From Plumapathes pennacea (taxonomy: Eukaryota > Cnidaria > Anthozoa > Antipatharia > Myriopathidae), in the NCBI GenBank assembly GCA_964036295.1, contig OZ038471.1, positions 14,278,184-14,342,183 of the forward strand: a stretch of DNA of 64,000 nt. The letters run 5' to 3'. Every line of letters starts with the position of its first letter. The stretch's first letter is position 1. This document shows, in pieces, positions 6,730 through 63,300 of this stretch. The translations under genes were made by a program, and so were the position numbers. The notes beneath the pieces are model-generated. The model was given only the letters and a program-made list of their open reading frames with translations. It made no database searches and was not told the DNA's origin.

Positions 6730-9700
6730 GTGCGAGGAAAGAATCCGCGATTAAATCGGTCACGTTTCGGCCAAATTATAACCAAATTTGTATTCCCCTC
6801 CACTCTAAGCTCTTATAGCTCAGGAACGCATAAAATCAGCTCATTAACGCGCCAAAGACCGTGCTGCACCTCTATGCAGCGCCGCTCACAAGTAACCTCA
6901 AGAACGCAGACTTTCATTTAAGAATATTATTCATATTCTAAGTGAATGACAGAAGTTTTACGCCTGTTGCTTCCGTACAAGAAGAGTAGTGCGCAAAATT
7001 GTTCTAACTACCCAATTAAGAGCGCCCGAAACATTGAACTTTTTCTTTGCTAATAGACGAAAATAGCGAATAGTTCGTTTCTCGCTCAATTCTTTGCCGA
7101 CAAACTGATTGTCATTCATTAAGCGTCTTATAGGTGTTCTTTCCTGAAAGTCTGCGCTCTTGTGGTTTCCTGTGAGTGAAGCTACATAGTAGAGGAAACG
7201 TACACTTAAAAGAAACTTGCGTAATATTATGTAAATGTGAGCTATAAGAGCTTACTATGGAGCGAAAGTAGATTGATTATATCTCGGCGGAAACTTGACC
7301 TTTTTAATCGTGGTTTCTTTCCTTGTGTACATCGTTGAGAGATACATCTTTCCTGTAAAGCACTTTGCATGAGACGCACTGAGAGCTCCAGAAACAACGA
7401 TTGTTTTTTCAAACAATAGGATTTCGATAATAAAATAGCTGGAGGGTCAAAAATTTTGGTACTTTATAATTTTCAAAATTTCTTGTATCCCTCAAAATTA
7501 TTTTTTCCAAGAGATTTTACAAAACGTTGGGCAAGCTAAAGAGACGTGCGAGGAAAGAATCCGCGATTAAATCGGTCACGTTTCGGCCAAATTATAACCA
7601 AATTTGTATTCCCCTCCACTCTAAGCTCTTATAGCTCAGGAACGCATAAAATCAGCTCATTAACGCGCCAAAGTCCGTGCTGCACCTCTATGCAGCGCCG
7701 CTCACAAGTAACCTCAAGAACGCAGAATTTCATGGAAGAATACTATTGATATTCTAAGTGAATGACAGAAGTTTTACGTCTGTTGCTTCCGTACAAGAAG
7801 AGTAGTGCGCAAAATTGTTCTAACTACCCAATTGAAAATAGCGAATAGTTCGTTTCTCGCTCAATTCTTTGCCGACAACTGATTGTCATTCATTAAGCGT
7901 CTTATAGGTGTTCTTTCCAGAAAGTCTGCGCTCTTGTGGTTTCCTGTGAGTGGCGCTACATAGTAGAGGAAACGTACACTTAAAAGAAACTTGCGTAATA
8001 TTATGTAAATGTGAGCTATAAGAGCTTATTATGGAGCGAAAGTAGATTGATTATATCTCGGCGGAAACTTGACCTTTTTAATCGTGGTTTCTTTCCTTGT
8101 GTACATCGTTGAGAGATACATCTTTCCTGTAAAGCACTTTGCATGAGACGTACTGAGAGCTTCAGAAACAACGATTGTTTTTTCAAACAATAGGAATTCG
8201 ATAATAAGGTAGCTGGAGGGTCAAAAATTTTGGTACTTTATAATTTCCAAAATTTCTTGTATCCCTCAAAATTATTTTTTCCAAGAGATTTTACAAAACG
8301 TTGGGCAAGCTAAAGAGACGTGCGAGGAAAGAATCCGCGATTAAATCGGTCACGTTTCGGCCAAATTATAACCAAATTTGTATTCCCCTCTACTCTAAGC
8401 TCTTATAGTTCAGGAACGCATAAAATCAGCTCATTAACGCGCCAAAGACCGTGCTGCACCTCTATGCAGCGCCGCTCACAAGTAACCTCAAGAACGCAGA
8501 CTTTCATTTAAGAATATTATTCATATTCTAAGTGAATGACAGAAGTTTTACGCCTGTTGCTTCCGTACAAGAAGAGTAGTGCGCAAAATTGTTCTAACTA
8601 CCCAATTGAGAGCGCCCGAAACATTGAACTTTTTCTTTGCTAATAGACGAAAATAGAGAATAGTTCCTTTCTCGTTCAATTCTTTGCCGACAAACTGATT
8701 GTCATTCATTAAGCGTCTTATAGGTGTTCTTTCCTGAAAGTCTGCGCTCTTGTGGTTTCCTGTGAGTGGCGCTACATAGTAGAGGAAACGTACACTTAAA
8801 AGAAACTTGCGTAATATTATGTAAATGTGAGCTATAAGAGCTTACTATGGAGCGAAAGTAGATTGATTATATCTCGGCGGAAACTTGACCTTTTTAATCG
8901 TGGTTTCTTTCCTTGTGTACATCGTTGAGAGATACATCTTTCCTGTAAAGCACTTTGCATGAGACGCACTGAGAGCTTCAGGAACAACGATTATTTTTTC
9001 AAACAATAGGAATTCGATAATAAGGTAGCTGGAGGGTCAAAAATTTTGGTACTTTATAATTTTCAAAATTTCTTGTATCCCTCAAAATTATTTTTTCCAA
9101 GAGATTTTACAAAACGTTGGCCAAGCTAAAGAGACGTGCGAGGAAAGAATCCGCGATTAAATCGGTCACGTTTCGGCCAAATTATAACCAAATTTGTATT
9201 CCCCTCCACTCTAAGCTCTTATAGCTCAGGAACGCATAAAATCAGCTCATTAACGCGCCAAAGTCCGTGCTGCACCTCTATGCAGCGCCGCTCACAAGTA
9301 ACCTCAAGAACGCAGAATTTCATGGAAGAATACTATTGATATTCTAAGTGAATGACAGAAGTTTTACGTCTGTTGCTTCCGTACAAGAAGAGTAGTGCGC
9401 AAAATTGTTCTAACTACCCAATTGAAAATAGCGAATAGTTCGTTTCTCGCTCAATACTTTGCCGACAAACTGATTGTCATTCATTAAGCGTCTTATAGGT
9501 GTTCTTTCCTGAAAGTCTACGCTCTTGTGGTTTCCTGTGAGTGGCGCTACATACTAGAGAAAGCGTACACTTAAAAGAAACTTGCGCAATATTATGTAAA
9601 TGTGAGCTATAAGAGCTTACTATGGAGCGAAAGTAGATTGATTATATCTCGGCGGAAACTTGACCTTTTTAATCGTGGTTTCTTTCCTTGTGTACATCGT

Positions 9701-9910
9701 TGAGAGATACATCTTTCCTGTAAAGCACTTTGCATGAGACGTACTGAGAGCTTCAGAAACAACGATTGTTTTTTAGAACAATAGGAAATCGATAATAAGG
9801 TAGCTGGAGGGTCAAAAATTTTGGTACTTTATAATTTTCAAAATTTCTTGTATCCCTCAAAATTATTTTTTCCAAGAGATTTTACAAAACGTTGGGCAAG
9901 CTAAAGAGAC
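6730..9910. repeat. Local dimer duplication in the array (about 1,590 bp, two copies)
   Basis: The pair of monomers starting at 6730 and 7546 is repeated by the pair starting at 8320 and 9136 (spacing 816, 774, 816, 775). The first member of each pair shares a private early stop (CTTTCATTTAAG instead of CATGGAAG). The second member of each pair shares AATTTCATGG. This is a younger duplication within the array. Confidence 0.75.
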
Positions 9911-10603
9911 GTGCGAGGAAAGAATCCGCGATTAAATCGGTCACCTTTGGGCCAAATTATAACCAAATTTGTATTCCCCTCCACTCTAAGCTCTTATAGC
10001 TCAGGAACGCATAAAATCAGCTCATTAACGCGCCAAAGTCCGTTCTGCACCTCTATGCAGCGCCGCTCACAAGTAACCTCAAGAACGCAGACTTTCATGG
10101 AAGAATACTATTGATATTATAAGTGAATGAAAGAAGTTTTACGTCTGTTGCTTCCGTACAAGAAGAGTAGTGCGCAAAATTGTTCTAACTACCCAATTGA
10201 AAATAGCGAATAGTTCGTTTCTCGCTCAATACTTTGCCGACAAACTGATTGTCATTCATTAAGCGTCTTATAGGTGTTCTTTCCTGAAAGTCTACGCTCT
10301 TGTGGTTTCCTGTGAGTGGCGCTACATACTAGAGAAAGCGTACACTTAAAAGAAACTTGCGCAATATTATGTAAATGTGAGCTATAAGAGCTTACTATGG
10401 AGCGAAAGTAGATTGATTATATCTCGGCGGAAACTTGACCTTTTTAATCGTGGTTTCTTTCCTTGTGTACATCGTTGAGAGATACATCTTTCCTGTAAAG
10501 CACTTTGCATGAGACGTACTGAGAGCTTCAGAAACAACGATTGTTTTTTAGAACAATAGGAATTCGATAATAAGGTAGCTGGAGGGTCAAAAATTTTGGT
10601 ACT

Positions 10604-11378
10604 TTATAATTTTCAAAATTTCTTGTATCCCTCAAAATTATTTTTTCCAAGAGATTTTACAAAACGTTGGGCAAGCTAAAGAGACGTGCGAGGAAAGAAT
10701 CCGCGATTAAATCGGTCACCTTTGGGCCAAATTATAACCAAATTTGTATTCCCCTCCACTCTAAGCTCTTATAGCTCAGGAACGCATAAAATCAGCTCAT
10801 TAACGCGCCAAAGTCCGTTCTGCACCTCTATGCAGCGCCGCTCACAAGTAACCTCAAGAACGCAGACTTTCATGGAAGAATACTATTGATATTATAAGTG
10901 AATGAAAGAAGTTTTACGTCTGTTGCTTCCGTACAAGAAGAGTAGTGCGCAAAATTGTTCTAACTACCCAATTGAAAATAGCGAATAGTTCGTTTCTCGC
11001 TCAATTCTTTGCCGAGAAACTGATTGTCATTCATTAAGCGTCTTATAGGTGTTCTTTCCTGAAAGTCTGCGCTCTTGTGGTTTCTTGTGAGTGGCGCTAC
11101 ATACTAGAGAAAGCGTACACTTAAAAGAAACTTGCGTAATATTATGTAAATGTGAGCTATAAGAGCTTACTATGGAGCGAAAGTAGATTGATTATATCTC
11201 GGCGGAAACTTGACCTTTTTAATCGTGGTTTCTTTCCTTGTGTACATCGTTGAGAGATACATCTTTCCTGTAAAGCACTTTGCATGAGACGTACTGAGAG
11301 CTTCAGAAACAACGATTGTTTTTTAGAACAATAGGAATTCGATAATAAGGTAGCTGGAGGGTCAAAAATTTTGGTACT
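10604..11378. repeat. Representative satellite monomer, a diverged inverted dimer
   Basis: Within the monomer one half resembles the reverse complement of the other. A perfect 16-bp pair, TAAGCTCTTATAGCTC (10762-10777) and GAGCTATAAGAGCTTA (10379-10394 and 11154-11169), alternates in orientation every 383-392 bp. Around it the halves align over most of their length. AGCGCCGCTCACAAGTAACC matches AGCGCCACTCACAGGAAACC on the other strand. CGCGATTAAATCGGTCACG matches CACGATTAAAAAGGTCAAG. AGTGAATGACAGAAGTTT matches TAATGAATGACAATCAGTTT. One symmetry axis lies near 10,604 and the other near 10,990. I read this as an ancestral unit of about 390-410 bp duplicated in inverted orientation and then amplified as a pair. 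Confidence 0.85.
10685..10889 (+). other. Open 67-codon frame present in every satellite monomer, probably not a gene
   Basis: One frame stays open for 63-71 codons in all 37 monomers, beginning at a GTG codon (residues after it RGKNPRLNRS) and normally ending at a TGA. The copy at 10,686 is given as the example. No in-frame ATG opens it, it resembles no family I know, and the monomers are so alike that shared openness is expected without selection. Two monomers (6730, 8320) stop early at TAA and one (14561) reads through, so length is not strictly kept. Confidence 0.15.
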
Positions 11379-30091: not shown

Positions 30092-30650
30092 AGACTATCA
30101 GAAGACTTTTCGCAATACATTTGCTTTATCGATCTTCATCCGTTGCCGAGATATTGGAGCTTAAATTTGGCGATTTTGCTCGAAAGGTGTGATGTTTTAA
30201 TTAGCGCATGATTTGCTCTAATTTGCTCTAATTTCGCACGAAGCGCGGGCTAAAAGTTTACAAAAACTATGCAGAAACCGTCGGCATAGTCCCACGAACG
30301 TTTCCTGAAAGTTTCGAGCGATTCTGAGAAGGTCGAAAAATGGCCGGATTTTGACAAAATACTAAGGCTATAGCACAGGTTTTTTTGTCAAAAATTGAAA
30401 ACCCTTGAAACTTTCAGGAAACTTTCTTTGGACTATAAGAAGACTTTTCGCAATACATTTGCTTTATCGATCTTCATCCGTTGCCGAGATATTGCAGCTT
30501 AAATTTGGCGATTTTGCTCGAAAGGTGTGATGTTTTAATTAGCGCATGATTTGCTCTAATTTGCTCTAATTTCGCACGACGCGCGGGCTAAAAGTTTAGA
30601 AAAACTATGCAAAAACTGTCGGCATAGTCCCACAAACGTTTCTTGAATAC
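30092..30650. repeat. Right flanking tandem repeat, same family as 1-760
   Basis: After the satellite stops at CACTTTGCAT, the flanking family resumes mid-unit (GAAGACTTTTCGCAATACAT). It then runs for nearly two units (TTTCCTGAAAGTTTCG at 30301, decayed TTTCTTGAATAC at 30639). Compared with a complete flanking unit, about 75 bp around the hairpin loop is absent between the left and right breakpoints. This makes the satellite look like an insertion into, or replacement within, an older repeat array. Confidence 0.85.
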
Positions 30651-34435: not shown

Positions 34436-34445
34436 TTTATTTATT
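34436..34445 (-). promoter_or_regulatory. Poly(A) signals overlapping the SLC7 stop codon
   Basis: The coding end reads ACC AAT AAA TAA, giving two overlapping AATAAA hexamers (34445-34440 and 34441-34436). The second includes the stop codon. If used, the transcript would have a 3' UTR of only a few tens of bases. Copies 2 and 3 also have AATAAA at or just after the stop. Confidence 0.5.
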
Positions 34446-36023
34446 GGTTACCAGTCCTCTCACAGGCTTTTCAACATTACACCAGCGCTGAAAACAATTG
34501 GTTATTCTTCTGTTAAAAATTAACAGACATTGCGGAATACACTTTTTCACAATAAAAATATAATAGACGGGTACACCTGTTGCCATGACAGCCAAACCAT
34601 AACACGCTTCGAGAGGTTTCGTCAGAAAAGGAACGACCGCCAAATATCCAGATATAAGCGCCATGGCAACTGGAATTACGATATTCACTTTATACCCACG
34701 TGGTAGGCCGGGCTTTGTGAATCTTAGCATTATCAATGCGGAAAAAATTGCAAAACATGTTAACCAGTCAATGAACAGAAGCCAGTTTAACAGAGTTTCT
34801 ATACCAGATGGAAGTAAAAAAAGAGACGTTAGCGTTCGAAACACTAGTGCAGGAATAGGTGTTTGAGTTTTGCGATGGACATAGCAAAAAAGGTCCGGGA
34901 CTTGTTTCTCCATTGCCATCGCCGCTAACATCCTACAGCTGTAGAAAACGTCCGTGTTTAAGGATCCCAGACACGATAAAGCGACCACTAACGGCATGAT
35001 CAGCCCAAACGTGTAGTTTAACTTAGAGCCAAATGTCACCACAACTGCAGCGGATGATAAATACTCCGATGGACTCAAAACGCTGAAGAAAGCGGCGTTG
35101 ATTAGGATATAACAAATCGCTATAAACGGCATAGACAACCATACCGCGCGAGGGAAATTTTTCTCTGGGTTACGGACCTCTTCTGTGACTGCGCCAAGGT
35201 CGGTCCAACCTCTATAGGCAAACATTACGCTGTAGAACGCATGCCCAATTAGACCAGGCGACTTCGTACTGCTTTTGAACGGTTCTTGAAAGTTATCATT
35301 GTAACCCTCCACAACACGAGTTAATCCAACGCCGATTATTACTACAATAGCGAGCAGCTTTGCAGTGGTGAAAATGCTTTGAGCTATAAGGGCGGTGCGA
35401 GCACTGATGGCGTTTATGATACCGATGAAACAGAGTAGACACGCAGCGACGACCTTGATAAGCCAGTCCGGTGGACTGCCGCTATTAGTTCCATAGATCA
35501 TCTGATAGAAAGGCTCTGTGGCATACAAGGCACAGGCAATGCTTGCCAAAGCTTTATAGCCTGGGGCGGTAAACCAAACATCGAGCATTGTGTACAGAAA
35601 CGCCACGAGGTCGCCAAACATAAATTTTAAGTATACGTATGTCCCACCGGACGAAGGAATTGTATTCGCCAGTTCAGCGTAGCATAACCCACCAAACAGG
35701 GCAATCAACCCGCCGAGCATCCACACCAGTAGGGTTAAGCCGACAGACTGGCAGTCCTTTAGGACAAAATTCGGTGAAATAAAGACTCCGGAGCCAATGA
35801 TTCCGCCGATCACCATTGCAATGGCGTGTGGAAGCGCAATTTTACGTTTGAGTACAAGACCGCCTGTTTCTAGCTCCGTGCCTCCATCTTCCAGAAGATG
35901 ACTTCTATCATCATTGGGCACGACGACGTCTAGTGACTCATGCATTGCATTTTGTTGGTTGTTTACGGCTCCTTTACCCGGCTCGTCTTCAACACAAACC
36001 AAAGGGGAATATTTGGTTTCCAT
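34437..36023 (-). CDS. SLC7-family (LAT-type) amino-acid transporter, copy 1, intronless
   Basis: A single open frame of 528 codons encodes a 12-TM APC-superfamily permease of the SLC7 light-chain branch, which exchanges or takes up amino acids at the plasma membrane. The hydrophilic N-terminus (about 1-60) leads into TM1 with the signature GGIIGSGVFISP (73-84), the unwound substrate-binding helix of this family. TM6 carries FAYRGW (268-273) followed by VTEEVRNPEKNFP, another family hallmark. The C-terminus ends with a short cytoplasmic tail. Length fits the family (about 500-535). Two oddities stand out. Residue 271 in the TM6 binding segment is Arg where relatives have a small residue or Asp. 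The extracellular loop between TM3 and TM4 (about 168-190) has no Cys, so the usual disulfide to an SLC3 heavy chain is not possible there. The start ATG is followed by a region conserved with copies 2 and 3 (NNQQNAM). It is divergent to copy 2. Substrate is unknown; the family assignment is firm. Confidence 0.93.
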   Translation of the reverse strand: METKYSPLVCVEDEPGKGAVNNQQNAMHESLDVVVPNDDRSHLLEDGGTELETGGLVLKRKIALPHAIAMVIGGIIGSGVFISPNFVLKDCQSVGLTLLVWMLGGLIALFGGLCYAELANTIPSSGGTYVYLKFMFGDLVAFLYTMLDVWFTAPGYKALASIACALYATEPFYQMIYGTNSGSPPDWLIKVVAACLLCFIGIINAISARTALIAQSIFTTAKLLAIVVIIGVGLTRVVEGYNDNFQEPFKSSTKSPGLIGHAFYSVMFAYRGWTDLGAVTEEVRNPEKNFPRAVWLSMPFIAICYILINAAFFSVLSPSEYLSSAAVVVTFGSKLNYTFGLIMPLVVALSCLGSLNTDVFYSCRMLAAMAMEKQVPDLFCYVHRKTQTPIPALVFRTLTSLFLLPSGIETLLNWLLFIDWLTCFAIFSALIMLRFTKPGLPRGYKVNIVIPVAMALISGYLAVVPFLTKPLEACYGLAVMATGVPVYYIFIVKKCIPQCLLIFNRRITNCFQRWCNVEKPVRGLVTNK

Positions 36024-37038
36024 TCTCTGCTGTGATCGCCGCTCGAGATTCGATCAGTGAATTCTAGCCTCTGGCCTTTGAGCGCCCTCAAATCGCCTGT
36101 CACGGAACAGTTCACGGGCTGTGAATATATTTGTTTTGTTCTTCTATTTTGCATAAGACCGATTTATCCACAATTTGATTCCAATGAGCAGGCAATATGG
36201 AAAGGCAATAACTATTAAAGAGTTTCAACAAAAGATCAGTCACTCCCGGCCCCTATAAATTATCTGGTGGCCACTACAATTAAGAAACGTTGACAGTATC
36301 TTTCCATTCAAGCACATAAGGCTCCGATCGCACTTGTAATTCTGACGACATTTATATCAACACTTGCATCATTTGAAGTGAAAACAGGGCTTGTCACCAA
36401 AAATATATGTCAGAAAGTTGCTACCAAGCACTGAAGAAGCCGTCGTATTGCCCTCAATGCTGCGGTTATTATCGACTAAACTTCCTAGTGCGACCGGGCC
36501 CTAACTATCAAAACGGCTCGAAAATAGTGTTGGCCGACAATATACGAACACTAAGCCCTTCGTCACAGACTCATTTCGTATAATTATAAATAAATTATAA
36601 TAATCCTATAACAACCGCCCGGGCACTTATTAATTTTAAAGAGACAGGGCGCTAATTTAACTTTCAAGAGGAACATTGTAGTACAATGGAACCTTCCTGA
36701 GAGACCCCTACATGACCATGACCGATTGTTCCCTCAGTCAAATTTCTATTAGTGAAACCTCTCGTAAGCGACCGCGACCACCTTGAGGTTCACTATTATA
36801 TTAATTCTACCCCTATAAAGCGAATAAATGTCAATACGCCACTGCTGCAAGGCTCAAATCATTATTCTGCATGCAGATATTTGATTACGAATATTATCTT
36901 ATCGTTCAAATCCACACATTGTAGTATTACAATAAAACCAAAGGCTGGGTGGTGCAACGTAACACTGTTCAATTTTAAGGCAAAATAATTGATCATACCC
37001 GATAAACGAATATTTTGGTCGTTTTCTCACAAATTCGT
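36024..37038. other. Shared upstream region of the head-to-head SLC7 pair
   Basis: With the minisatellite to its right, this 1.5-kb interval separates two divergent transporter starts and must hold both promoters. I see no coding exon here and no single convincing TATA element to assign. Part of it is AT-rich (for example 36,580-36,610). Confidence 0.4.
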
Positions 37039-37209: not shown

Positions 37210-37524
37210 ACATTTTCCCAGTCCTTTGGCATTTCTATATCGGGGTTCCCCGGCCTAAACAGGCATTGAACAGGTGACGGAGAACTCAAACCAGATTTAA
37301 CAACACTGTTTGACCGGGACCTCGAGAGTTTCAAAATTTCAGATGGAACTCTCAATGTTTCATACCTGAGACCGAGAACGAAAAGAAAGAAGAAACCGGG
37401 AATTGTGAATAAAACAGGAAACCAGATTCTCAGTTTCCCGTTCCGGGTTCCAGATTTTAAATGGGTTAATAATTTGAATATTGTTCGCGTGTCAGACACG
37501 GGCGTCACGGGCGTCACAGGCACA

Positions 37525-39099
37525 ATGGACAAATGTGCACCTTTGGATTACAATGAAGACAATTCGAATACAGGAGCCGTTTGCAACCAGCAAAATGCAA
37601 TGAAAGATTCACAAGACGTCGTAGTCAATGATGATGGAAGTCTACTAAAAGATGGAGACATACAAACAGACGCTCTTGTGCTCAAACGTAAAATCGGGCT
37701 TCCACACGCCATTGCAATGGTGATCGGCGGAATCATTGGCTCCGGAGTCTTTATTTCGCCGAGTTTCGTCCTAAAGGACTGCCATTCTGTCGGCTTGACC
37801 CTACTGGTGTGGATGCTCGGCGGGTTGATTGCACTGTTTGGTGGGTTGTGTTGCGCTGAACTGGCGAATACAGTTCCTTTGTCCGGTGGCACATATGTAT
37901 ACCTCAAATTTATGTTTGGCGACCTCGTGGCGTTTCTCTTCACCTGGATTGATGTTTGGTTCATCTCCCCAGGCTATAAAGCTTTGTCAAGCATTGCCTT
38001 TGCCTTGTATGCCACAGAGCCTTTTTATCATATGATCTATGGAACTAATAGCGGCAGTCCACCGGACTGGCTTATCAAGGTCGTCGCTGCATGTCTACTC
38101 TGTTTCATCGGTATCATAAACGCCATCAGTGCTCGCACCGCCCTCATAGCTCAAAGCATTTTCACCACTGCAAAGCTGCTCGCTATTGTAGTAATAATCG
38201 GCGTTGGATTAGCTCGTGTTGTGGAGGGTTACAATGATAACTTTCAAGAACCGTTCAAAAGCAGTACGAAGTCGCCTGGTCTAATTGGGCATGCGTTCTA
38301 CAGCGTAATGTTTGCGTATAGTGGGTGGGGGGAACTGGGATCAGTCACAGAAGAGGTTCTTAACCCAGAGAAAAATTTCCCTCGCACGGTATGGTTGTCT
38401 CTGCCGTTTGTTACGCTTTGTTATATCCTGATCAACGCCGCCTTCTTCAGTGTTTTGAGTCCAGCGGAGTATTTATCATCCCCTGTAGTAGTGGTGACAT
38501 TTGGCTCCAAGTTGAACTACACGTTTGGGCTGATCATGCCGTTAGTGGTCGCTTTATCGTGTCTGGGATCCTTAAACACGGGCATTTTCTGCAGCTGTAG
38601 GATGTTAGCTGCAATGGCAATGGAGAAACAAGTCCCCGACCTTTTTTGCTATGTCCATAGCAAAACTCAAACACCTATTCCTGCACTGGTGTTTCGAATG
38701 CTAACGTCTCTTTTTTTACTTCCTTCTGGTATAGAAACTCTGTTAAACTGGCTTCAGTTCATTAACTGGTTAGCATCTTTTGCTCTTTTTTCCGCATTGA
38801 TAGTCCTAAGATTCACAAAACCCTGCCTACCACGTGGGTATAAGGTGAATATCGTAATTCTAGTTGTCATGACGCTTGTAACTGCATATTTGGTGGTCGT
38901 TCCTTTTCTGACAAAACCTCTCGAAGCGTGTTATGGTTTGGCTGTCATGGCAACAGGTGTGCCCGTCTATTATATTTTTATTGTGAAAAAGTGTATTCCG
39001 CAATGTCTGTTAATTTTTAACAGAAAAATAACTAGTTGGTTTCAGCGCTGCTGCAATCTTGAAAAGCCTGTGAGGGGACTGGTAACCAGGGATAAATAA
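37525..39099 (+). CDS. SLC7-family (LAT-type) amino-acid transporter, copy 2, intronless
   Basis: Encodes 524 residues when started at the ATG at 37,525. An in-frame ATG lies 120 bases upstream, but its extra 40 residues are not shared with copies 1 and 3, so I prefer the internal start. The protein is closely similar to copy 1 along its whole length: TM1 GGIIGSGVFISP, TM6 FAYSGW then VTEEVLNPEKNFP, and the SRTALIAQSIFTTAKLLA-like stretch (here ISARTALIAQS). Ser replaces the Arg seen in copy 1 at the TM6 position. As in copy 1, the TM3-TM4 loop lacks the heavy-chain cysteine. It has no introns. AATAAA (39,095-39,100) overlaps the stop codon. A 12-TM plasma-membrane amino-acid exchanger or uniporter is expected; substrate cannot be read from sequence. 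It is head to head with copy 1 and in tandem with pseudogene copy 3. Confidence 0.93.
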   Translation: MDKCAPLDYNEDNSNTGAVCNQQNAMKDSQDVVVNDDGSLLKDGDIQTDALVLKRKIGLPHAIAMVIGGIIGSGVFISPSFVLKDCHSVGLTLLVWMLGGLIALFGGLCCAELANTVPLSGGTYVYLKFMFGDLVAFLFTWIDVWFISPGYKALSSIAFALYATEPFYHMIYGTNSGSPPDWLIKVVAACLLCFIGIINAISARTALIAQSIFTTAKLLAIVVIIGVGLARVVEGYNDNFQEPFKSSTKSPGLIGHAFYSVMFAYSGWGELGSVTEEVLNPEKNFPRTVWLSLPFVTLCYILINAAFFSVLSPAEYLSSPVVVVTFGSKLNYTFGLIMPLVVALSCLGSLNTGIFCSCRMLAAMAMEKQVPDLFCYVHSKTQTPIPALVFRMLTSLFLLPSGIETLLNWLQFINWLASFALFSALIVLRFTKPCLPRGYKVNIVILVVMTLVTAYLVVVPFLTKPLEACYGLAVMATGVPVYYIFIVKKCIPQCLLIFNRKITSWFQRCCNLEKPVRGLVTRDK

Positions 39100-41708: not shown

Positions 41709-43148
41709 ATGGAAAATTGTTCCCCTTCGGACTGTGCTGAAGACGACCCGAATAAACGAGCCGTGAGCAACCAACAAAATGCAATGCACGAGTCACTACG
41801 CGCCGTCGTGGCCAATTATGATGAAAGAAGTCGTCTTCTCGAAGATGGAGACGCGGAACTAGAAACAGACGCTCTTGTACTCAAACGTAAAATGTTGCGT
41901 TGCGTTGTGTTACGCTGAACTGGCGAATACAATTCCTTCGTCCGGTGGCACATACGTGTACTTAAAATTTGCGTATGGCGACTTAGTGGGGTTTCTGTAC
42001 ACAATGCTCGATGTATGTTTTACCTCCTCTGGCTATCAAGCTTTGGCAAGCATTGCCTTCGCATTGTATGCCACAGAGCCTTTCTATCATATGATCTATG
42101 GAACTAATAGCGACAGTCCACCGGACTGGCTTATCAAGGTCGTCGCTGCGTGTCTACTCTGTTTCATCGGTATCATAAACGCCATCAGTGCTCGCACCGC
42201 CCTTATAGCTCAAAGCATTTTCACCACTGCAAAGCTGCTCGCTATTGTAGTAATAATCGGCGTTGGATTAACTCGTGTTGTGGAGGGTTACACTGACAAC
42301 TTTCAAGAACCGTTTAAAGGCAGTACGAAGTCGCCTGGTCTAATTGGGCATGCGTTGTACAGCGTAATGTATTCTTATAGTGGTTGGACCGACCTTGGCG
42401 CAGTCACAGAAGAGGTCCGTAACCCAGAGAAAATTTTCCCTTGCACGATATGGTTGTCTATGCCGTTTATAGCGATTTGTTATATCTTAATCAACGCCGC
42501 TTTCTTCAGTGTTTTGAGCGGTCCAGCGGAGTATTTATCATCCGCTGCAGTCGTGGTGACATTTGGCTCTAAGTTGAACTACACGTTTGGGCTGATCATG
42601 CCGTTAGTGGTCGCTTTATCGTATCTGGGAACCTTAAATACAAACGTGTTCATCAGCTGTAGGATGTTAGCGGCGATGGCAATGGAGAAACAAGTCCCCG
42701 ACCTTTTTTGCTATGTCCATAGCAAAACTCAAACACCTCTTCCTGCACTGGTGTTTCGAACGCTAACGTCTCTTTTATTGCTTCCATCCGGTATAGAAAT
42801 TCTCTTAAACTGGCTTCTGGTCATTGACTGGTTAACATGTTTTGCACTTTTTTCCGCATTGATAATGCTAAGATTCACAAAGCCCGGCCTACCACGTGGG
42901 TGAATATCGTAATTCCAGTTGCCATGGCGCTTATATCTGGATATTTGGCGGTCGTTCCTTTTCTGACGAAACCTCTCGAAGCGTGTTATGGTTTGGCTGT
43001 CATGGCAACAGGTGTACCCGTCTATTATATTTTTATTGTGAAAAAGTATATCCCGCAATGTCTGTTAATTTTTAACAGAAGAATAACTAGTTGGTTTCAG
43101 CGCCACTGTAATCTTGAAAAACCTGTGAGGACTGGTAACCAGGGATGA
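41709..43148 (+). pseudogene. SLC7-family transporter, copy 3, disrupted
   Basis: The start (MENCSPSDCAEDD) and the common N-terminus (SNQQNAMHES, then LKRK) match copies 1 and 2. About 150 bases equivalent to the end of the N-tail, TM1 and much of TM2 are then missing at about 41,893, replaced by a short GTTGCGTTGC filler. The deletion removes the GGIIGSGVF motif and shifts the frame, giving a stop at about 41,918. From CYAELANT onward the transporter reads well in another frame (TM3 to TM10, including YSYSGWTDL). A 7-base deletion at about 42,902 (TATAAGG lost) then makes a stop, and the last helices continue in a third frame to 43,148. A 2-base deletion near 43,129 alters the tail. AATAAA follows at 43,148. 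Loss of TM1 alone should abolish transport. Confidence 0.9.
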
Positions 43149-54062: not shown

Positions 54063-57000
54063 ATTATTATTACTATTACTATTACTATTACTATTATTAA
54101 AACCTAGTGTTCTCAAGCCTTGGTTTTTAATGCAAGCACCCAAGCACAAGCTGGATGGATCAAAATAATTTGATTATTGTACTTACACTTAGTAATAATA
54201 ACTATTTTAATTATTAAGAACTATAAGCATAAAGAAAAGCTTTAAAATAATTTAGCAAAACAAAGACACTTAATCACAATAAATTATTATTGAAGTTGTT
54301 TTTTAACTCAGAATACTATACATTATGTACTATCAATATTCTTACAATCAAGTCCCTCTAAGACAGATACCCTCAGGACCCGCTCCATCCACCAAGGGGT
54401 TGGCTATTAATCCAATTTTTTTAATAGTTAGCCATCTATATATTATTTATAGTATCCAAGTGACTTAAAGCACCACTACATGAAATTTCAGAAGAATAGC
54501 TATTTTTGTACGGGAGAAAGAATTTTCTAATTGATTTTCCGAAAAACATCCAAATTTGCCAGGGCAAATACCCTAAAGAAAGTTAAGTTAGAGTAAATGA
54601 CTGTGGCAAGGACTGCTCCTTCCAAAAATCTGTCTTAAAGAAGTTCATCTTAGAGAGGAGTCCATGAGTCTATATAAAATTATAATCATAAATCAGGTGA
54701 ATGAACCAACATGAAAACTTACCAGGTTTCTCACTTCACCGCGGCAGAGTTTCTCGTAATTCTGGAAAGCTAATGTCTGGTGTAGCGAATCTCTCTCATC
54801 GACCGGTTTCACAGATGAATCAGGTAACACTGCTGAGTCTCCTTTCTCTCCAGTGATTTTGTATTTCTTCAGTTGATCCCCAAAGTAAATTACATTATCT
54901 TGGGCTCTCTCGTGGGTTGGATCTAAAAAAGAGATGTTATTATTATTATAAATTGTACACTGTAAATAATCTGTAAACTGTGACACATCCAGGCTTGCTC
55001 ATTAGTACACAAAATACCAAAATGAATCTTAACATTTACTTTTGCTCAAAGAGGGCCTAGATGGGGTTACTGTTAAGTGTTCTGAAGCCAAATTATTATG
55101 AATTATGAATTAATGTAAGTGATGTAAAAAAATACAGTTAAGCGTTACAAGACTAGATATTAGATAAAACAAGACAAGAGGGCCTAGATGGGGTTTACTG
55201 TTAAGTGTAATGGGCCTGAATTTTTTCACTAGTGTTATGCAGACCCTATGCTGTATGGCAATGTAGCTGAATATTCTGAGAGGAAACTTAACCCTTAACT
55301 GTCAGTTTATGTTTTTCACTTACCAATCTGGATCATTTCCAAAGAATAGTTTAAGGCTTTCTTGAAGTTTCCTCTCTGAAATAAGAAAGCAAAATTAATG
55401 TGAGCTGATCTTGCTTGCAGGTTCAAAATGGTCAGACTGGCAATTCTCCCAGGTAAGAGGGTGTTGACAGGACTGCTGTACTTTATGAAATAAAAACCGA
55501 GGCATGCATTTGAATGCTGATTTGTTCACTTACCACTGGTATTTTGGATGCTAAACCTTATTTTTACCACAACACACTAGTTTCTCGCTCTCTGATTGGT
55601 CGATTTACCATGGTAAATAAGAGTCCAGACAACGATGCTGACGCTAGCATGTCACGTTTTGCAGCAAAATACAACGAAAGTTTCCTGTATATAATTCTAA
55701 ATGTTGTGGTAAAAAACAAATTTCCACTGGTTTGCCGTGGTGTGGACTCTTATTTACCATGATTTACGTCATCACATGGTCAAAATTAGTTGTGGACTCA
55801 CTTGGCAAAGCACCTCGTGAGTCCACAACATTTTGACCATGTGATGACGTAAATCGTGGTAAATAAGAGTCCACACCACGGCAAACCAGTGGAAATTTAT
55901 TAAATATTTGAGGGGGGCTACATTAATTATTGGACAATTTTTTTGTATGCTACACCTCCCCCCCTCCCCTCCCCTTCCCCTTAACCCTTTCACTCCTGAG
56001 CTCATAATACAAATTCTCCCAACCATTCGAGAAGAAAATGTATGAGTGATGTAATGAGAATTGATTGGCCAATCAGCTTTCATCTGAGCAAACTATCAAG
56101 TAGCAAATTCTCCATACAGTATGATACATCTCTCCCGAAAAACTGATAGGAGAAAATTGAAGCTGATCACCCCTAGGAGTGAAAGGGTTATGAAGGGACT
56201 GATATTCAGGGTAATAATGTATGGATGGGCTTATATTTGTGAGGGCCTATTTTAGGGGTGGGAAGGGGGACATATTTTCTATGGAATTTTATGGTACTTT
56301 GGGATTTAAAGGGTCAATGATTTGAATCTAAAAGGGAATGGCATAGAAGCAATTACTTGGAATACACAGAGAGCAGTAACATCTCACCTGGTATTCCGAG
56401 AAAGACAAATGGTCAAAAACATCAAATGGTTCCACATTTTCAATCTCTTCTTCCCTCCTGATTTTTCTGAGTGTCTCTTCCATCCAGACTTTAGTGTAAA
56501 ACATGTCTTGGTTTAAGTATGCTTGTCGTCCCACATCATAAGAGTCACCAACACTCATCCTGGGCGATAACTTAACACCAGGCAGTCTGCCCATTGCCAA
56601 AGCGCGGCTGGACAGGCGGTAGGTATCTTGGAGGCGCAGTAGACCAGTGATAGCTCCCTCGTAATCCTCTCTTGTAGGAAAGGCTTCCTTATGCTTTGAT
56701 ATCGCATCAACCAGTGCTATATGGTAATAATGGGAAAATACAATATTGAAACAACAGACATGTGGTGCCATGTGGATAGTACCAGCCATCTCCCAGATGG
56801 ATAACGTATCATGACATAATGTTCATCGGAAACATGTACCTAAACGCTACCTTGACTGAAATTGATAAAAATTAACTACATGGTCAAAGTGAAAAAAGAG
56901 TTTGCAATAATTAAACCTCCCCTCCACACCCCCAACCCCCCCTCCTTCTCTTCTCACTTTCTAAGGAACTTTTCAATGTGGTTACAAATCCCCTCGGTAA

Positions 57001-58000
57001 AGGAACAACCCAATGAATCTCCCACTCTTTTCTTATTAAAATTGCAAATTCCCTGCCTTCTGGCCAACCAGGTCAGACAAATTCCTCAAGACTTAAGGGG
57101 AGGGGGAGGGGGAATATGTACAACATAACATGCCAACATGATTGAATTTAACTGAACTTTGCAATTTTGCTCAACATTGACAATAGCTCTCATTTGAGAG
57201 GCTACACTGATAGGTTTCCGTTGAAAGTTCGACAGCTGTTACTTCTCTTTGCTCCTTTCGGCAAACCGGAAGTGAGGTATTATATTTCTTCTCAGACTTT
57301 CTGACACGTAATTTTTCATGTGTAAAATTGGTCGACGTGTAATTTATGACTTGGCATGGAAACGTCCAGACGAAGATTGTTCCGATCCTGTCAACGTTTT
57401 CGCGAAAGGCATACGAGGAAGTTGTTTGGCAATTAAATGCCTTTACAAACTGTATTGAATGATTAATCGACCGATTTGCACACCGCAACTGTTCGGCCAT
57501 GAAAGAATTCCTTCATGAACCCAAAGCCGCTATCCTTCACGGAAGGAGAGCATTCTTATTGCTTCCAGAAGCCTTCCAAAAACTGACAATTAAAATTAGA
57601 AGTATTAAAAAGAAAATATATATGTGAAGATTCGCACGTATATAATTTTTAGCATACCTTCTGTGTTGTCTTGTTGGACTAATTCCTCAATTTCAGGCCA
57701 TTCCTTGAAATATCGTCTGATGATAAGATAGGAATTGACCGGGTGACCTAAAAACCGGGCTATATCATCCCCAACTAAGTTGTGATTTTCTTCCATCTTC
57801 GCATAGATTCCCTTGATACGGTCAAGTCTGACCTCTTCCATGGCTATGTAGCTTCGCAAAGACGCTTTCATTTCGCGTTCCCTGTACACCAAGTCTTGTA
57901 AATCCACTATAGCTGTGAATAGCTCTCCATTGGAGAAGGATACGCTTAAGGAAAGCAGTAAAGCAAGCACAGAAAGTCTACAGTACGCCACAGGCGCCAT
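44984..58000 (-). CDS. Collagen prolyl 4-hydroxylase alpha subunit, gene A (12 exons, complete)
   Basis: Makes 4-hydroxyproline in X-Pro-Gly collagen repeats in the ER, using Fe(II), 2-oxoglutarate, O2 and ascorbate, as a tetramer with protein disulfide isomerase. Exons (high to low): 58000-57658, 56716-56388, 55375-55324, 54922-54723, 53769-53599, 53303-53233, 48310-48211, 47730-47677, 47063-47001, 46401-46333, 46125-46029, 45054-44984. All joints are GT/AG and in phase, and total 1,620 bases (539 residues plus stop; vertebrate proteins are about 530-550). Residues 1-25 are a signal peptide (MAPVAYCRLSVLALLL...). The dimerisation region runs to about 115, then the peptide-binding region (LLRLQDTY, VLSF-like SFSEYQ/RGNFKKAL). 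The catalytic domain has HYEPHYDF (His435, Asp437), STRHAACPVLVGNKW (His505, Lys515) and the ending ANKWIHEKNQEFRRPC. The 71-bp exon 6 (LRRATVKNRLTGKL) corresponds to the exon that is duplicated and mutually exclusive in vertebrate P4HA1; I find only one here. An upstream in-frame ATG (58,138) lacks a signal peptide and is not preferred. It is divergent to gene B. Confidence 0.95.
45187..45512. repeat. Short divergent tandem repeats, cluster 2
   Basis: About four or five units of 70-95 bp with the same words as 31,131-31,362 (ACTCATTGAGA, TTTCATTTGA, CACACCATTAGGTTTCA, AGTTCAGGAGTTG, GTGAACACTG). It lies in the last intron of P4HA gene A. Confidence 0.7.
46201..46300. mobile_element. MITE family 2, right half only
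   Basis: Begins at the loop side (CGGCGAAGCGCCTCGTGAGT) and ends CCAGTGGAAATTTATTA. It matches the second arm of the full copy at 55,718-55,903 and is the reverse complement of the half copy at 33,579. It lies between exons 10 and 11 of P4HA gene A. Confidence 0.75.
46440..46848 (+). mobile_element. 5'-truncated non-LTR retrotransposon, 3' end
   Basis: An open stretch reads YYRKSYFIRSAELWNTLP then SITKSCKLTAYIQI and a stop. This is the typical C-terminal tail after the reverse transcriptase of CR1/L2-like elements (R-S-x-x-LWN-x-LP). A 3' UTR of about 240 bp follows, ending in a short tandem tail (ATTAAACTAAACTAAACTAAAG). It is inserted in intron 9 of P4HA gene A, in the opposite orientation to the gene. 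Most of the element is missing. Confidence 0.75.
47151..47302. mobile_element. Hairpin MITE (152 bp) with CCCACACTAATCCG ends
   Basis: GCCCCACCCACACTAATCCG at the left pairs with CGAATTAGTGTGGACGGGC at the right, with about 35-bp arms. A related fragment (GGATTAGTGTGGAAGGGCG) follows at about 47,319, so it may be two nested or partial copies. It lies in intron 8 of P4HA gene A. Class not assigned. Confidence 0.65.
47406..47730. repeat. Tandem repeat (103-112 bp) containing P4HA exon 8 and two partial exon copies
   Basis: TCCTGTGTTCCTGATCT recurs at 47,406, 47,509 and 47,621. Each unit ends with the 3' part of exon 8 read on the minus strand: GGACACTATGAGCCTCATTA and on, encoding GHYEPHYDFAR, followed by the donor GTGAGT. 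The true exon is in the right-most unit (47,730-47,677) and has its own acceptor. The other two units lack the first seven codons and the acceptor; C-rich sequence lies there instead. The left-most unit has lost 3 bases (CATAATGAGG to CATGAGG) and has ATTCTAG in place of ACTCTAG, which changes its donor from GTGAGT to ATGAGT. Confidence 0.9.
48017..48208. repeat. 96-bp direct duplication beside the exon 7 donor
   Basis: AAGGATTTCTGACACACTCA (48,017) is repeated at 48,113 and the similarity runs through to TAGCGATATTTGC, ending just before the exon 7 boundary at 48,211. The two copies differ by only a few bases. It lies at the start of intron 7 of P4HA gene A. Confidence 0.9.
49046..49282. mobile_element. 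MITE family 1, second copy
   Basis: CCCGGGGCCAATTCAATAAA at the left end and CAACTTGTAAAACACACTTG near the right end match the copy at 39,621. The right terminus is decayed (GTATTAGCCTCTGGGG). It lies in intron 6 of P4HA gene A. Confidence 0.75.
49275..49485. mobile_element. MITE family 1, third copy
   Basis: Abuts the second copy. The right end is well preserved (TTGATTGAATTGGCCCCTG), and the internal CTTTTAATCCAATGCAATGG is like the other copies. The left end is decayed, so the boundary with the previous copy is approximate. Confidence 0.65.
49607..49800 (+). mobile_element. SINE-like or LINE-end element with (AAAT)n tail
   Basis: About 140 bp containing a small hairpin (CTCCTGAGCTCCTC / GAGGAGCTCTGGGA) ends in a run of about twelve AAAT units (49,753-49,799). 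A simple-sequence tail on one side is typical of retroposed elements. I cannot identify a tRNA-derived promoter with confidence. Confidence 0.35.
50735..51050. repeat. Minisatellite of CCCTATTTCAGACC units (about 33/66 bp)
   Basis: Phrases AAACCAAAATTTGCGATTTA and AGACCCTATTTCAGACCAAC alternate for about seven units, then give way to TGGGGCGGCACATACATATA. The last part matches the repeat at 39,966-40,130 on the other strand. It lies in intron 6 of P4HA gene A. Confidence 0.85.
51974..52008 (-). ncRNA. Hammerhead-ribozyme-like motif, possibly from a Penelope-like element
   Basis: Read on the minus strand, the core words occur in order: CTGAAGA (fits CUGANGA), a segment able to form a short GAC/GTC stem with a loop, then GAAAC and GTC, a valid cleavage triplet. 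Hammerhead motifs of this compact kind are known in Penelope-like retroelements, whose ends carry similar words. One unpaired T between the core and stem II, and weak outer stems, make activity doubtful. Confidence 0.35.
52233..52263. repeat. (GGTT)n microsatellite
   Basis: Short run of GGTT units in intron 6 of P4HA gene A. Confidence 0.85.
52339..52443. mobile_element. MITE family 3, internally deleted copy
   Basis: TTAACCCTTTTACTCCCAAG and its reverse complement CTTGGGAGTGAAAGGGTTAA form the two ends of a 105-bp element. Longer copies are at 55,981 and 61,659. Confidence 0.85.
53944..54100. repeat. (ATT)n microsatellite
   Basis: About 150 bp of ATT with some ATC and ACT units, in intron 4 of P4HA gene A, about 175 bases from exon 5. 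Frames through it give runs of Ile or Tyr only and are not coding. Confidence 0.95.
55718..55903. mobile_element. MITE family 2, complete palindrome (186 bp)
   Basis: AAATTTCCACTGGTTTGCC at the left and its reverse complement at the right, with arms of about 85 bp nearly identical through GACTCTTATTTACCA, TTTACGTCATCACATGGTCA and GTTGTGGACTCAC. Half copies are at 33,579 and 46,201. It lies in intron 2 of P4HA gene A. Confidence 0.9.
55981..56190. mobile_element. MITE family 3, long copy (210 bp)
   Basis: TTAACCCTTTCACTCCTGAG at the left and AGGAGTGAAAGGGTTA at the right, internally very similar to 61,659-61,869. It lies in intron 2 of P4HA gene A. Confidence 0.88.
57176..57242. repeat. Single diverged unit of the 31,131 / 45,187 repeat family
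   Basis: TAGCTCTCATTTGAGAGGCT, then TAGGTTTCCGTTGAAAGTTC, resembles one unit of the two clusters. It lies in intron 1 of P4HA gene A. Confidence 0.4.
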
Positions 58001-58353
58001 GGCTGAGTGAAATCGCCCAGGTACCCGAACGGGACGAAATAAACATTGATCACACATCCTGCAAGGTGCGGAGAATTCAATTATTGATCTGATACAAACC
58101 GAAAATATGTAGCTTAAAATTTTCGCGAAATGTAACATTTTGATAGATTTTCTTATGACTTTTAATTAACTAACTTAAGCGGAAATGTAAATGCATGTTT
58201 TATTTCGCTTCTGGGGATTTTAGGGGGCATGTTTTTTCGCAGCAAAACTTGATCATTTGCCAAAATCTCTCCGCGCCGCGCGGTCACAGATGAATGGGCC
58301 ATTCATGGCTCATTTCTCGTAGATAGGGGGGAGGGGTGGGGGAGGCGGTGGTT

Positions 58354-59717: not shown

Positions 59718-60366
59718 ATACCTCTCTCTTTCTCTTCATTATTTTCTTTTTGTCATTGCAAAACGGTTTCTTTAACCTTTCCGATCTCGAACCAATATTT
59801 TCGTTTTGGCCTTGGAGGTTAGAGCTATTGGGATTTCTCTGTGCCCGGAAGTCAACTGTTGACGCAGGTTCATTTTCATTGCATTCTGGCAGTTTTTGGA
59901 ATACACACTAACAGTCTATTACACCCTTCCAAAGTTAGAAGTAATTTTCTCAGTGAGCAAAAAGGTCAAATTTCTCACCCGAACCTGGCGAGTACAAGAA
60001 ATTCTCACATTAGAGTGACGTCACTTCCGCAAATCGCCTGACAAATATGTTACCCGTCATGCACCTGTCGAAGCACATGGTTGGTTTATCAGCTGGAAAA
60101 AATGACAAAGGCCGAGTTTGAAGCTTTCGGATAGAAATCTGTCCAAAACAGTGTAAAAACGCGGCTAGAAAGTCATCAATCACCACGTTTATGCAAGAGC
60201 TGATGAATACGATAAGGAAGATATTCACAAACGTGCTAACCCACACGCAGTAGAAATATTGACCGTTCGTAAATTATTAAAGAAAGAATGTTTTTTGATT
60301 TAAAAAAAAAAAAAACATGTGAACCAACGGTTTTACTGTGTTACAGCTGTGGTTGCGAGGTCCGTG
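59718..60366. other. Upstream region of P4HA gene B, no gene seen
   Basis: Lies between the foldback element and the gene B start. It contains a short A run at 60,302. No exon or recognisable repeat was identified, and the promoter of gene B is expected here. Confidence 0.4.
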
Positions 60367-63300
60367 ATGATCGCTAAACGTTTTCTACTTTTCTTCATAC
60401 TTTTCATATGCAGTGCCCCGCGCAGAAGACTTTTCGCCAGAGGTGATATTTTCGCCGCGTTGACTCAACTGCGAGATTTAATTTCACTCGAAGAACAATT
60501 GGGAGAAAGTTTAGATATTTACATCGAGGCAGAGAGGGCACGCTTGGAGAAGATAAAGACGTTTTCTAAAATAGTCAAAGATGCTTCACAAAAAGTGAAA
60601 CTCGCTGGAGGAGGGGAACACCTGATTAATAACCCTGGAAACTCTTATGGAGTTATAAAGCGGTTTGTCTCAGGATGGAGTAAGCTACAAAATCTCCTTG
60701 AGCAAGACTACACTGCAGGTAAGTATTTAGTGAACTTATGAATACTATAGCGTATAAGTATTGGCCGCGACCAGAATCTTGTGAACCATTTTCCCCTCTC
60801 CTGTATGCAATAAGTATTATACCACTAAAATGGGGAATGGGAAATTAGGTCAGAGAAGTCGCGTAGGGTTAGGATTAGATGTTTTGATGTCTAACCATAA
60901 ACCTAACCATAAAACTAACCCTAACCCAACGCGAATTAGCTCTGTTGGTTTCTATGGTCTCATTCCCCATTCTCCCACCGGCATTTTTCTGTACTCACAC
61001 CAACTGTGGCACTACAAATAAGATAACAACAGCCTGTCGAATATAATTATCGATAATTCATTCGCTTCCAATAAAACCTGAACAGGTTGTTCCACAAGCG
61101 ACGCTAGTACAAGATTCTTATGGCTCGACGCCCAAGCATTCTGATCATGTTGGATATATCTTGATAGTGTGGTTATAAAGCTCCACGAAGGTTCCGTGAT
61201 TCATCTTTTTTTTTTTTTCTTTTTCTTTTTTTTTTTGATAACACAGCTTAATTGGCGACAGAAAAAATCGAATCGATATCATGTCCGCTGTATATTTGTG
61301 GGTGTTTTTTTGTTCAGCGTTATTCAAATTATCAATTTTTAATCGTTTCGTAAATCCATCTTGCTAAATTTTTGCAATCATAACATTACTGTAAAGCAAT
61401 TATGCTCGAAAATATATCTCTTACTCTCTTATTTCATGCACATGCAGTTACAAAACCAAACTTTCCACTAATATTGAAACGATTGGGCTACAATTTTGTC
61501 CTAAATCTACCGTAAGTTAAAAAATGTGTGAAGCCAAAACATCCTCAAACTGGACTCATAAGTACATTCATTCAACAACAATTTCATGAACCAAATTATA
61601 AAAATATTAAATTATGTGTCTCACTGTGTTGCCGTCAATTGGTAAATGTCTGCTTCGTTTAACCCTTTCACTCCCAAGCTCAAAATACAAATTCTCCCAA
61701 CCATAAAATAAGAAAATGTAAGAGTGATGAAATGAGAATTGATGTTTTAATCAGTTGTCATTTGAGCAAGGTATCAAATGCTGAATTCTCCATACTGTAT
61801 GATATATCTGTGGTGGGAGACTGAAAAGAGAAAATTGAAGTTGATCACTCCTGGAAGTGAAAGGGTTAAATTCACCAACATGGTAGCTAAAACAAATTCT
61901 CCAGCAAAAGTGCTTGGTGACGTTATAACCGTGACTACGTATCAGCGTAACTGATACAGACTAATTACACGTCATCTAAACCATGAATTCCGTCTATAAG
62001 CCACTTTTATAATCATTCGCAGTAGCAAATCGCAAACTTTTACTCCCCAAATAAGCGAGTGTCTGTTGAATAAATCTCTCGTTGAGCTTGCTTTTCTAGT
62101 TATATAATTACATTATCAACAAAGAATCAGTGTGTCCACTCTGCTCGCCAAGTTTTATTATCAAGTGGCCCGCGAGAGCATCTGCGCTTCACGAACTGCG
62201 CATGATTGCGAAAGTGGCTAATTCCATGAAAATATAACATAACTATACACAGAATACTTATTTCCCGGCTGGAGTTCTCAAGTCCCTCTCTAGCTTCGCG
62301 GCTGTCTCTACAACTCAAGCTCGACAAGTTTGATTTGTGATCTATATCATGTTCTTGCAGACCTTAGGAACCAGATCATATTGAACGAGGCCAGGTTCCC
62401 TAACTACAAAGAGGACTTAATAGGTGCAGTGGCGGCCTTAATAAGACTGCAGGATACGTACAACTTGACGGCCAGGGAATTAGTGGAGGGACGCATGAAA
62501 GGTTAGGGTCAGGTTATGTAATTGTTACGGAGCAGATTTTAGGGACTCGCTTCTGTACTCGATGACTTCTTTATTCGTGAAACTGCTGAGCTCTAGAGCC
62601 TCGAGACTAACGGAGAGCTCGGGCTCCAAGTCACAACTCTAACTCAACTCAACTCAACTCTACAAACTAGCCGTTAAGTATGCTCAGGGAGCACGTACAG
62701 CGATACCAAACTTCCGTTTGGGTAGACAACTAAATTGGATAGCAAATCCACAATGAGATTAGACCGGAAAGGAATGGACGGAATTTCCACGGCATAGGCG
62801 ACTACAAAGACTCCTAAGGTGTCTGTGCATCACGATGCCGAGCAACCACTTGGCAGCTTAGCTCAAATCGTGCAGGTAAAGCTTACCGACAGGCACATTC
62901 GTAGCAAACCTGGCGCCATGCCTTTCCTGCGGTTTGTGCTGCACACGCAAATGCTTCGCTGACCTCGTTTATGAACTATGCTCCTAAAGGCTACTGCAAA
63001 CCTAAGTCCGAAGGTCAAATGTGAGTCCTTCCGTTTGCAAATACAAGTTCGCTCCAGGATAGCCGAAATATTATTCTTTATAATAAACTTCCAAATTGTT
63101 CCGAATTGTCCCTTGACATAATCATACAACATCATCATCATCATCATCATCGTCATCGTCATCATCATCGTCATCATCGTCATCGTCATTGTCATCGTCA
63201 TCATCGTCATCGTCATCGTCATCGTCATCATCATCGTCATCGTCATCGTCATCATCATCGTCAGCATCATCATCATTGCAATTATCAAACTCTATGCCAT

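Follow-up and report, generated by a model that had tools for sequence, protein, structure and literature searches.

The repeat unit of a 29-kb satellite array in Plumapathes pennacea is a diverged inverted dimer with dispersed relatives

The 775/816-bp unit of a satellite array in the antipatharian Plumapathes pennacea is a diverged inverted dimer: it consists of two homologous segments in opposite orientation, apart from one non-symmetric stretch. We suggest, as the probable history of this unit, that an old, single inverted duplication was followed by dispersal and then by recent local amplification, with the palindromes carried along as baggage. The array lies in the window, by which we mean the whole 64,000-bp stretch that was analyzed (C10:14278184-14342183). 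The genome that was searched comprised 290 Mb in 24 contigs.

The array occupied positions 760 to 30095 of the window (plus strand) and contained 36 complete units, which were 775 bp (25 units), 816 bp (nine units), 774 bp (one unit), or 773 bp (one unit) long. The mean pairwise identity of these units was 98.1% and the minimum was 96.1%. Thus, the array had the properties of satellite DNA, namely, a long head-to-tail arrangement of near-identical, putatively non-coding units. Between positions 15412 and 21001, 816-bp and 775-bp units were in strict alternation for four rounds and formed a short run of a 1591-bp higher-order repeat. An Rfam scan of the window yielded no families at the gathering score, and a tRNA search of the window yielded no tRNAs.

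A 16-bp word, TAAGCTCTTATAGCTC, and its reverse complement marked the units. When sites with at most 2 mismatches were counted, 37 plus-oriented words (for example, 9212 to 9227) and 38 minus-oriented words (for example, 9604 to 9619, minus strand) were found in the array, and these 75 sites alternated in orientation without a break. The spacing from minus to plus words was 383 bp, with one case of 381 bp, and the spacing from plus to minus words was 392 bp (one case of 391 bp) or 433 bp (nine cases). The first-pass annotation had been assigned to positions 10379 to 11378, an interval that covers one monomer plus a bit of the much longer array. Its description of a 29-kb chain of about 74 half-units with a word that alternates in orientation agreed well with these counts, and the 433-bp spacing can be added to the spacings of 383 to 392 bp that it gave.

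The alternating words divided each unit into two different palindromes in series: palindrome A (408 or 449 bp), which spans the word to the inverted word, and palindrome B (about 399 bp), which spans the inverted word to the word. A and B were unrelated to each other beyond the 16-bp word. Examples on the plus strand are the short form of A at 9212 to 9619 (408 bp), the long form of A at 8396 to 8844 (449 bp), which has a 41-bp piece near the center of A that the short form lacks, and B at 9604 to 10002 (399 bp), in which only the outer 87 bp or so on each side aligned with the reverse complement. As measured by local alignment to their own reverse complements, A scored 61 and B scored 64, and the shuffle maxima were 36 and 37 with 300 mononucleotide shuffles and 48 and 49 with 500 dinucleotide shuffles. 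With the words trimmed, A still scored 61 versus a shuffle maximum of 50, so the symmetry of A was not confined to the word. In the case of B, the scores without words were borderline (42 versus 43 with one scoring scheme and 38 versus 35 with the other), and hence the symmetry of B rests on the outer 87 bp or so in register with the word.

Cutting at the palindrome centers instead of at the words yielded the half-units, as illustrated by the 388-bp segment from the center of A to the center of B at 9416 to 9803 (plus strand) and its reverse-complement homologue, the 387-bp segment from the center of B to the center of A at 9804 to 10190 (minus strand). The end-to-end reverse-complement alignment of these two halves scored 157, versus a shuffle maximum of 61 (n = 500). 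In this alignment, 252 of the 314 aligned bases were identical, but it was rich in gaps (461 columns), and the BLAST identity of 69% is the safer figure. Specifically, half-unit 9416 to 9803 aligned through its bases 60 to 273 with the opposite strand of the window array (69% identity, E = 3.1e-11). For half-unit 9020 to 9415, opposite-strand matches were found in the window array (bases 122 to 315, 68% identity, E = 4.7e-9) and in an array on C12 (bases 122 to 337, 69% identity, E = 6.3e-14). The inverted homology between halves therefore had an identity of about 69%, covered about 215 bp around the word, and reached well past the word itself, which bears out the earlier proposal that the two halves of the monomer are homologous on opposite strands. 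The symmetric part made up roughly 290 of the 388 to 408 bp in each half; for the middle 200 bp or so of B, neither self-alignment nor half-versus-half alignment to the reverse complement identified an alignable inverted counterpart.

Searches of the genome with each half identified A-B arrays, A-only arrays, and shorter pieces among the matches listed. Diverged copies with the same structure were present on other contigs, such as copies with 80% identity on C7, 76% on C4, and 85% on C9. This finding bears on the idea that the symmetry is chance self-similarity or an assembly artifact, for which one could cite the borderline scores of the B arms without the word and the asymmetry of the middle of B. 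Since the scores were far above those of shuffles and diverged copies elsewhere had the same structure, we regard this idea as very improbable.

The dispersed copies came in several settings. On C9, the unit was embedded in a repeat that two loci had in common over about 6.8 kb, with 96 to 99% identity in the main pieces, and the flank of this repeat was found with at least 97% identity at five C9 places besides the query (two of them partial and one of them the second 6.8-kb locus). On C12, a run of 15 complete A-only units, each about 404 bp long, was found at 1.896 to 1.902 Mb in a single orientation with no flips, the word was degraded in the A-only arrays, and a further cluster of A-B and A-only units at 642 to 654 kb was represented by search matches. 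The 41-bp piece of long A occurred in A-only units of C12 and in three copies on C9 as well, and, because it is shared in this way, the 816-bp form looks like the older one. Other repeats were also observed. C12:3283000-3299000 (L067 and L068) contained a large palindrome with 3.6-kb inner arms that were 98.8% alike and tandem repeats of about 640 bp at both outer ends, and it was one of seven inverted pairs of one flank sequence on C12, the members of which were 11 to 14 kb apart. A C9 locus (L061:44-3663) carried a short-period tandem array whose minus strand was open over several stretches with MHLPYM-like repeats.

The ends of the dispersed copies are relevant to an alternative origin, in which a foldback or MITE-type DNA transposon gave rise to the unit. 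In this case, the arms would be long terminal inverted repeats, the middle of B (or of A) would be the spacer, and satellite arrays would have arisen later by amplification of mobile copies, as for Tetris in Drosophila virilis. Long, diverged inverted arms do flank a non-symmetric center, dispersed copies are present on many contigs, and Tetris provides a precedent for foldback repeats that turn into satellites, as described in PMC4079207. The aligned copies, however, stopped at many different places rather than at recurrent, precise ends; the only edge that recurred was the one at unit position 405, which was shared by A-only arrays and by copies on C4 and C9 and is a point in favor of a transposon. 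An element ending near unit position 213 was also considered and discarded: the ends that recurred there were an artifact of a 775-bp BLAST query, which lacks the 41-bp piece, and they vanished with the 816-bp consensus. In addition, the unit appears to lack coding sequence. On balance, a transposon origin seems rather unlikely. The first-pass annotation had suggested that a smaller palindromic element was captured and amplified, and this part of it found no support because the dispersed copies did not have common ends. What was amplified is a unit that was already inverted and already dispersed.

To place the inverted duplication relative to dispersal, we used alignments of arms from 28 fetched loci (L001 to L008 and L039 to L058). 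In the A-arm tree, which contained 55 arms thinned from 132 and represented the consensus from the window together with loci on C3, C4, C5, C7, C8, C9, C10, and C12, the 30 left arms were completely separated from the 25 right arms (support 100/99; 200 of 200 bootstrap trees). The B-arm tree, for which 42 of 54 rows were kept, separated 23 right arms from 19 left arms fully, with support of 100/100. No arm among the rows of these trees branched between the left and right sides. Every tested arm was thus a left or a right arm, so the search for single half-units revealed no pre-duplication half-unit among the 28 aligned loci; the best 36 to 37 candidates were scored per search, and an older half-unit may be missed at that depth. 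The simplest reading of the arm trees is that one inverted duplication preceded dispersal, with the qualification that the trees are unrooted and contain near-copies and that one-sidedness does not prove a single origin. The separation of left and right sides could alternatively have been produced by conversion among arms of the same side.

The array is much younger than the structure of its units, which were 98.1% alike compared with about 69% identity between halves, and, judged by this contrast, the inverted duplication appears to predate the array by far. In the history that we favor, a segment with a length of at least some 290 bp, and perhaps the whole half-unit of about 400 bp, would have been duplicated in inverted orientation long ago, presumably once, which would have produced a unit with mirror-image flanks. 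The unit, either complete or truncated, would then have reached at least eight contigs, in some cases as part of larger repeats. Much later, local amplification, which might have occurred by unequal exchange or rolling-circle copying, would have generated the head-to-tail arrays on C10 and C12. Because the unit that was amplified head to tail was already inverted, each A-B array would automatically be a chain of alternating half-units, and the palindromes may have been inherited as baggage instead of being maintained by selection.

Diverged dispersed copies made it possible to ask whether the satellite palindromes are selected or relics. In single-strand DNA folds, the z-scores relative to shuffles were -7.53 for A, -7.26 for B, and -6.69 for long A, and none of 100 shuffles folded as well in any of the three cases, which is in line with the earlier statement that each half-unit is able to pair with its neighbor. 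Stability this far above that of shuffles would also be expected of a selected structure and counts against the baggage view. Selection might keep the alternating palindromes as hairpins or cruciforms, or through a protein that binds the 16-bp word, for example at centromeres; PMC13081366 mentions proposals of this type for the satellites of Tribolium. Folds that were 7.5, 7.3, and 6.7 standard deviations better than those of shuffles fit this proposal, as does the identity of the word in both arms of the array consensus. However, an arm did not prefer its own partner (mean score of 42.4 versus 41.8 across loci), a comparison that is weak because few of the 16 copies are independent. The conservation of the word was also ordinary. 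In the array, 517 of 801 16-bp windows were as conserved as the less conserved of the two word copies. At 13 dispersed loci that were not fetched via the word, the plus word was 80% conserved compared with 82.5% overall, and 449 of 766 windows were better conserved than the plus word; coverage of the minus word was too low there. On the basis of this ordinary conservation in the array and at the 13 loci, we rejected the word as a protein-binding box. A pattern like that of a CENP-B box, in which a short motif is conserved above the rest, was absent from the array and, for the plus word, from the dispersed copies. With no own-partner preference and no unusual conservation of the word, there was no sign of maintained pairing. 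Given also the degraded word of the C12 A-only arrays, we consider selection an improbable explanation, and the evidence leans toward palindromes that are relics.

Both edges of the array adjoined a 318-bp satellite (s318), which was located at positions 1 to 759 and 30093 to 30647 of the window (plus strand in both cases). The right joint between the window array and s318 was the same as the left joint of a second A-B array on C10, and this shared joint suggests that the two C10 arrays probably have a common ancestor that included the s318 flank. The s318 family had at least 178 matches genome-wide (the best 40 of 1355 candidates were scored), and the contigs among the matches listed were C1, C2, C3, C4, C6, C7, C9, and C10. 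Copies of s318 flanked or interrupted A-B copies on C7, C9, C10, and C12. A similar stretch at the word prompted a comparison of s318 with the unit. With one scoring scheme, all four comparisons scored 24, which was below the shuffle maxima of 30 to 35; with a second scheme, two comparisons were above the shuffles (34 versus 23 and 26 versus 23) and two were below (20 versus 26 and 22 versus 25).

Beyond the array, the window contained three similar open frames at 34437 to 36053 (minus strand), 37270 to 39099 (plus strand), and 41863 to 42903 (plus strand), which, judging from their translations, may be paralogous amino-acid transporters. Two open frames on opposite strands, at 56328 to 58165 (minus) and 60304 to 60741 (plus), may encode N-terminal parts of prolyl 4-hydroxylase alpha subunits, which their translations resemble. 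Elsewhere in the genome, C3:25-481 contained TTAGGG repeats that switch from the minus to the plus strand and so form an inverted telomere repeat near the contig start. The telomere repeat of Tribolium is TCAGG.

Related loci contained changes in the orientation of whole units. The second A-B array on C10 (13.549 to 13.564 Mb) showed three flips in 15 kb, and C12 loci near 0.89 and 2.59 Mb showed four and two flips, respectively. Both edges of all nine flips were inside A (unit positions 60 to 405). The window array had no flips; two apparent ones were a single weak 68% match produced by the unit's own inverted homology, and they were discarded because the word alternation was unbroken there. 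Given the resemblance between the two C12 loci, the nine flips cannot be counted as nine separate events. For this reason, and because more than half of the unit is A, their concentration in A is no more than suggestive. We tentatively raise the possibility that palindromic A is a built-in switch point, at which the mirror symmetry of the unit would allow strand jumps in copying or repair, and that repeated flips in A would build macro-dyad arrays. Such arrays are described in PMC13081366 as so far documented only in Tribolium. If A does act as a switch point, the family would be a macro-dyad case in a genome unrelated to Tribolium and would indicate how such arrays start, and, if the flips truly concentrate in the palindrome, it would be a small model for the beginnings of macro-dyad arrays.

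Several known systems resemble parts of what we observed. In the Pacific oyster, Cg_HINE comprises Helentron-borne, satellite-like repeats that, in the account in PMC7492417, occur throughout the genome and have links to longer arrays, as do the repeats described here. Tetris of D. virilis is a foldback element whose terminal inverted repeats hold internal 220-bp tandem repeats related to the TIR-220 satellite (PMC4079207). As in Tetris, inverted repeats here are associated with a dispersed repeat and have been expanded into satellite-like arrays; unlike in Tetris as described there, defined termini were not found among the copies aligned. TmSat2 of Tribolium madens has an imperfect palindrome of about 600 bp in a 704-bp monomer, subunits of about 110 bp, and highly abundant arrays that change orientation, with thousands of conserved inversion sites (PMC13081366). 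Palindromes A and B and the nine flips at three related loci are reminiscent of TmSat2 and macro-dyad arrays as presented in that source, but the arrays here are short and the flip edges are variable. The closest likeness in architecture is to the major satellite of Tribolium brevicornis (Mravinac et al. 2005, cited in PMC13081366 and also in the references of PMC4107277), which has a 1061-bp monomer with inverted segments of about 470 bp and is called the most prominent intra-monomer dyad reported in PMC13081366. The unit described here is likewise a long monomer of long inverted segments (775/816 bp, with halves of 388 to 408 bp). By architecture alone, and not by sequence kinship, the array can be assigned to the inverted-subunit satellites of the T. 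brevicornis type, an uncommon but already known kind. As the first-pass annotation pointed out, a plain head-to-tail description of a satellite of about 775 bp misses this inverted symmetry. By comparison, the array here is 29 kb long, and dispersed diverged copies and A-only arrays occur alongside it in the genome. The less usual feature is that these diverged copies have been retained, so that the order of events, from old inverted duplication through dispersal to recent local amplification, may be read from them.
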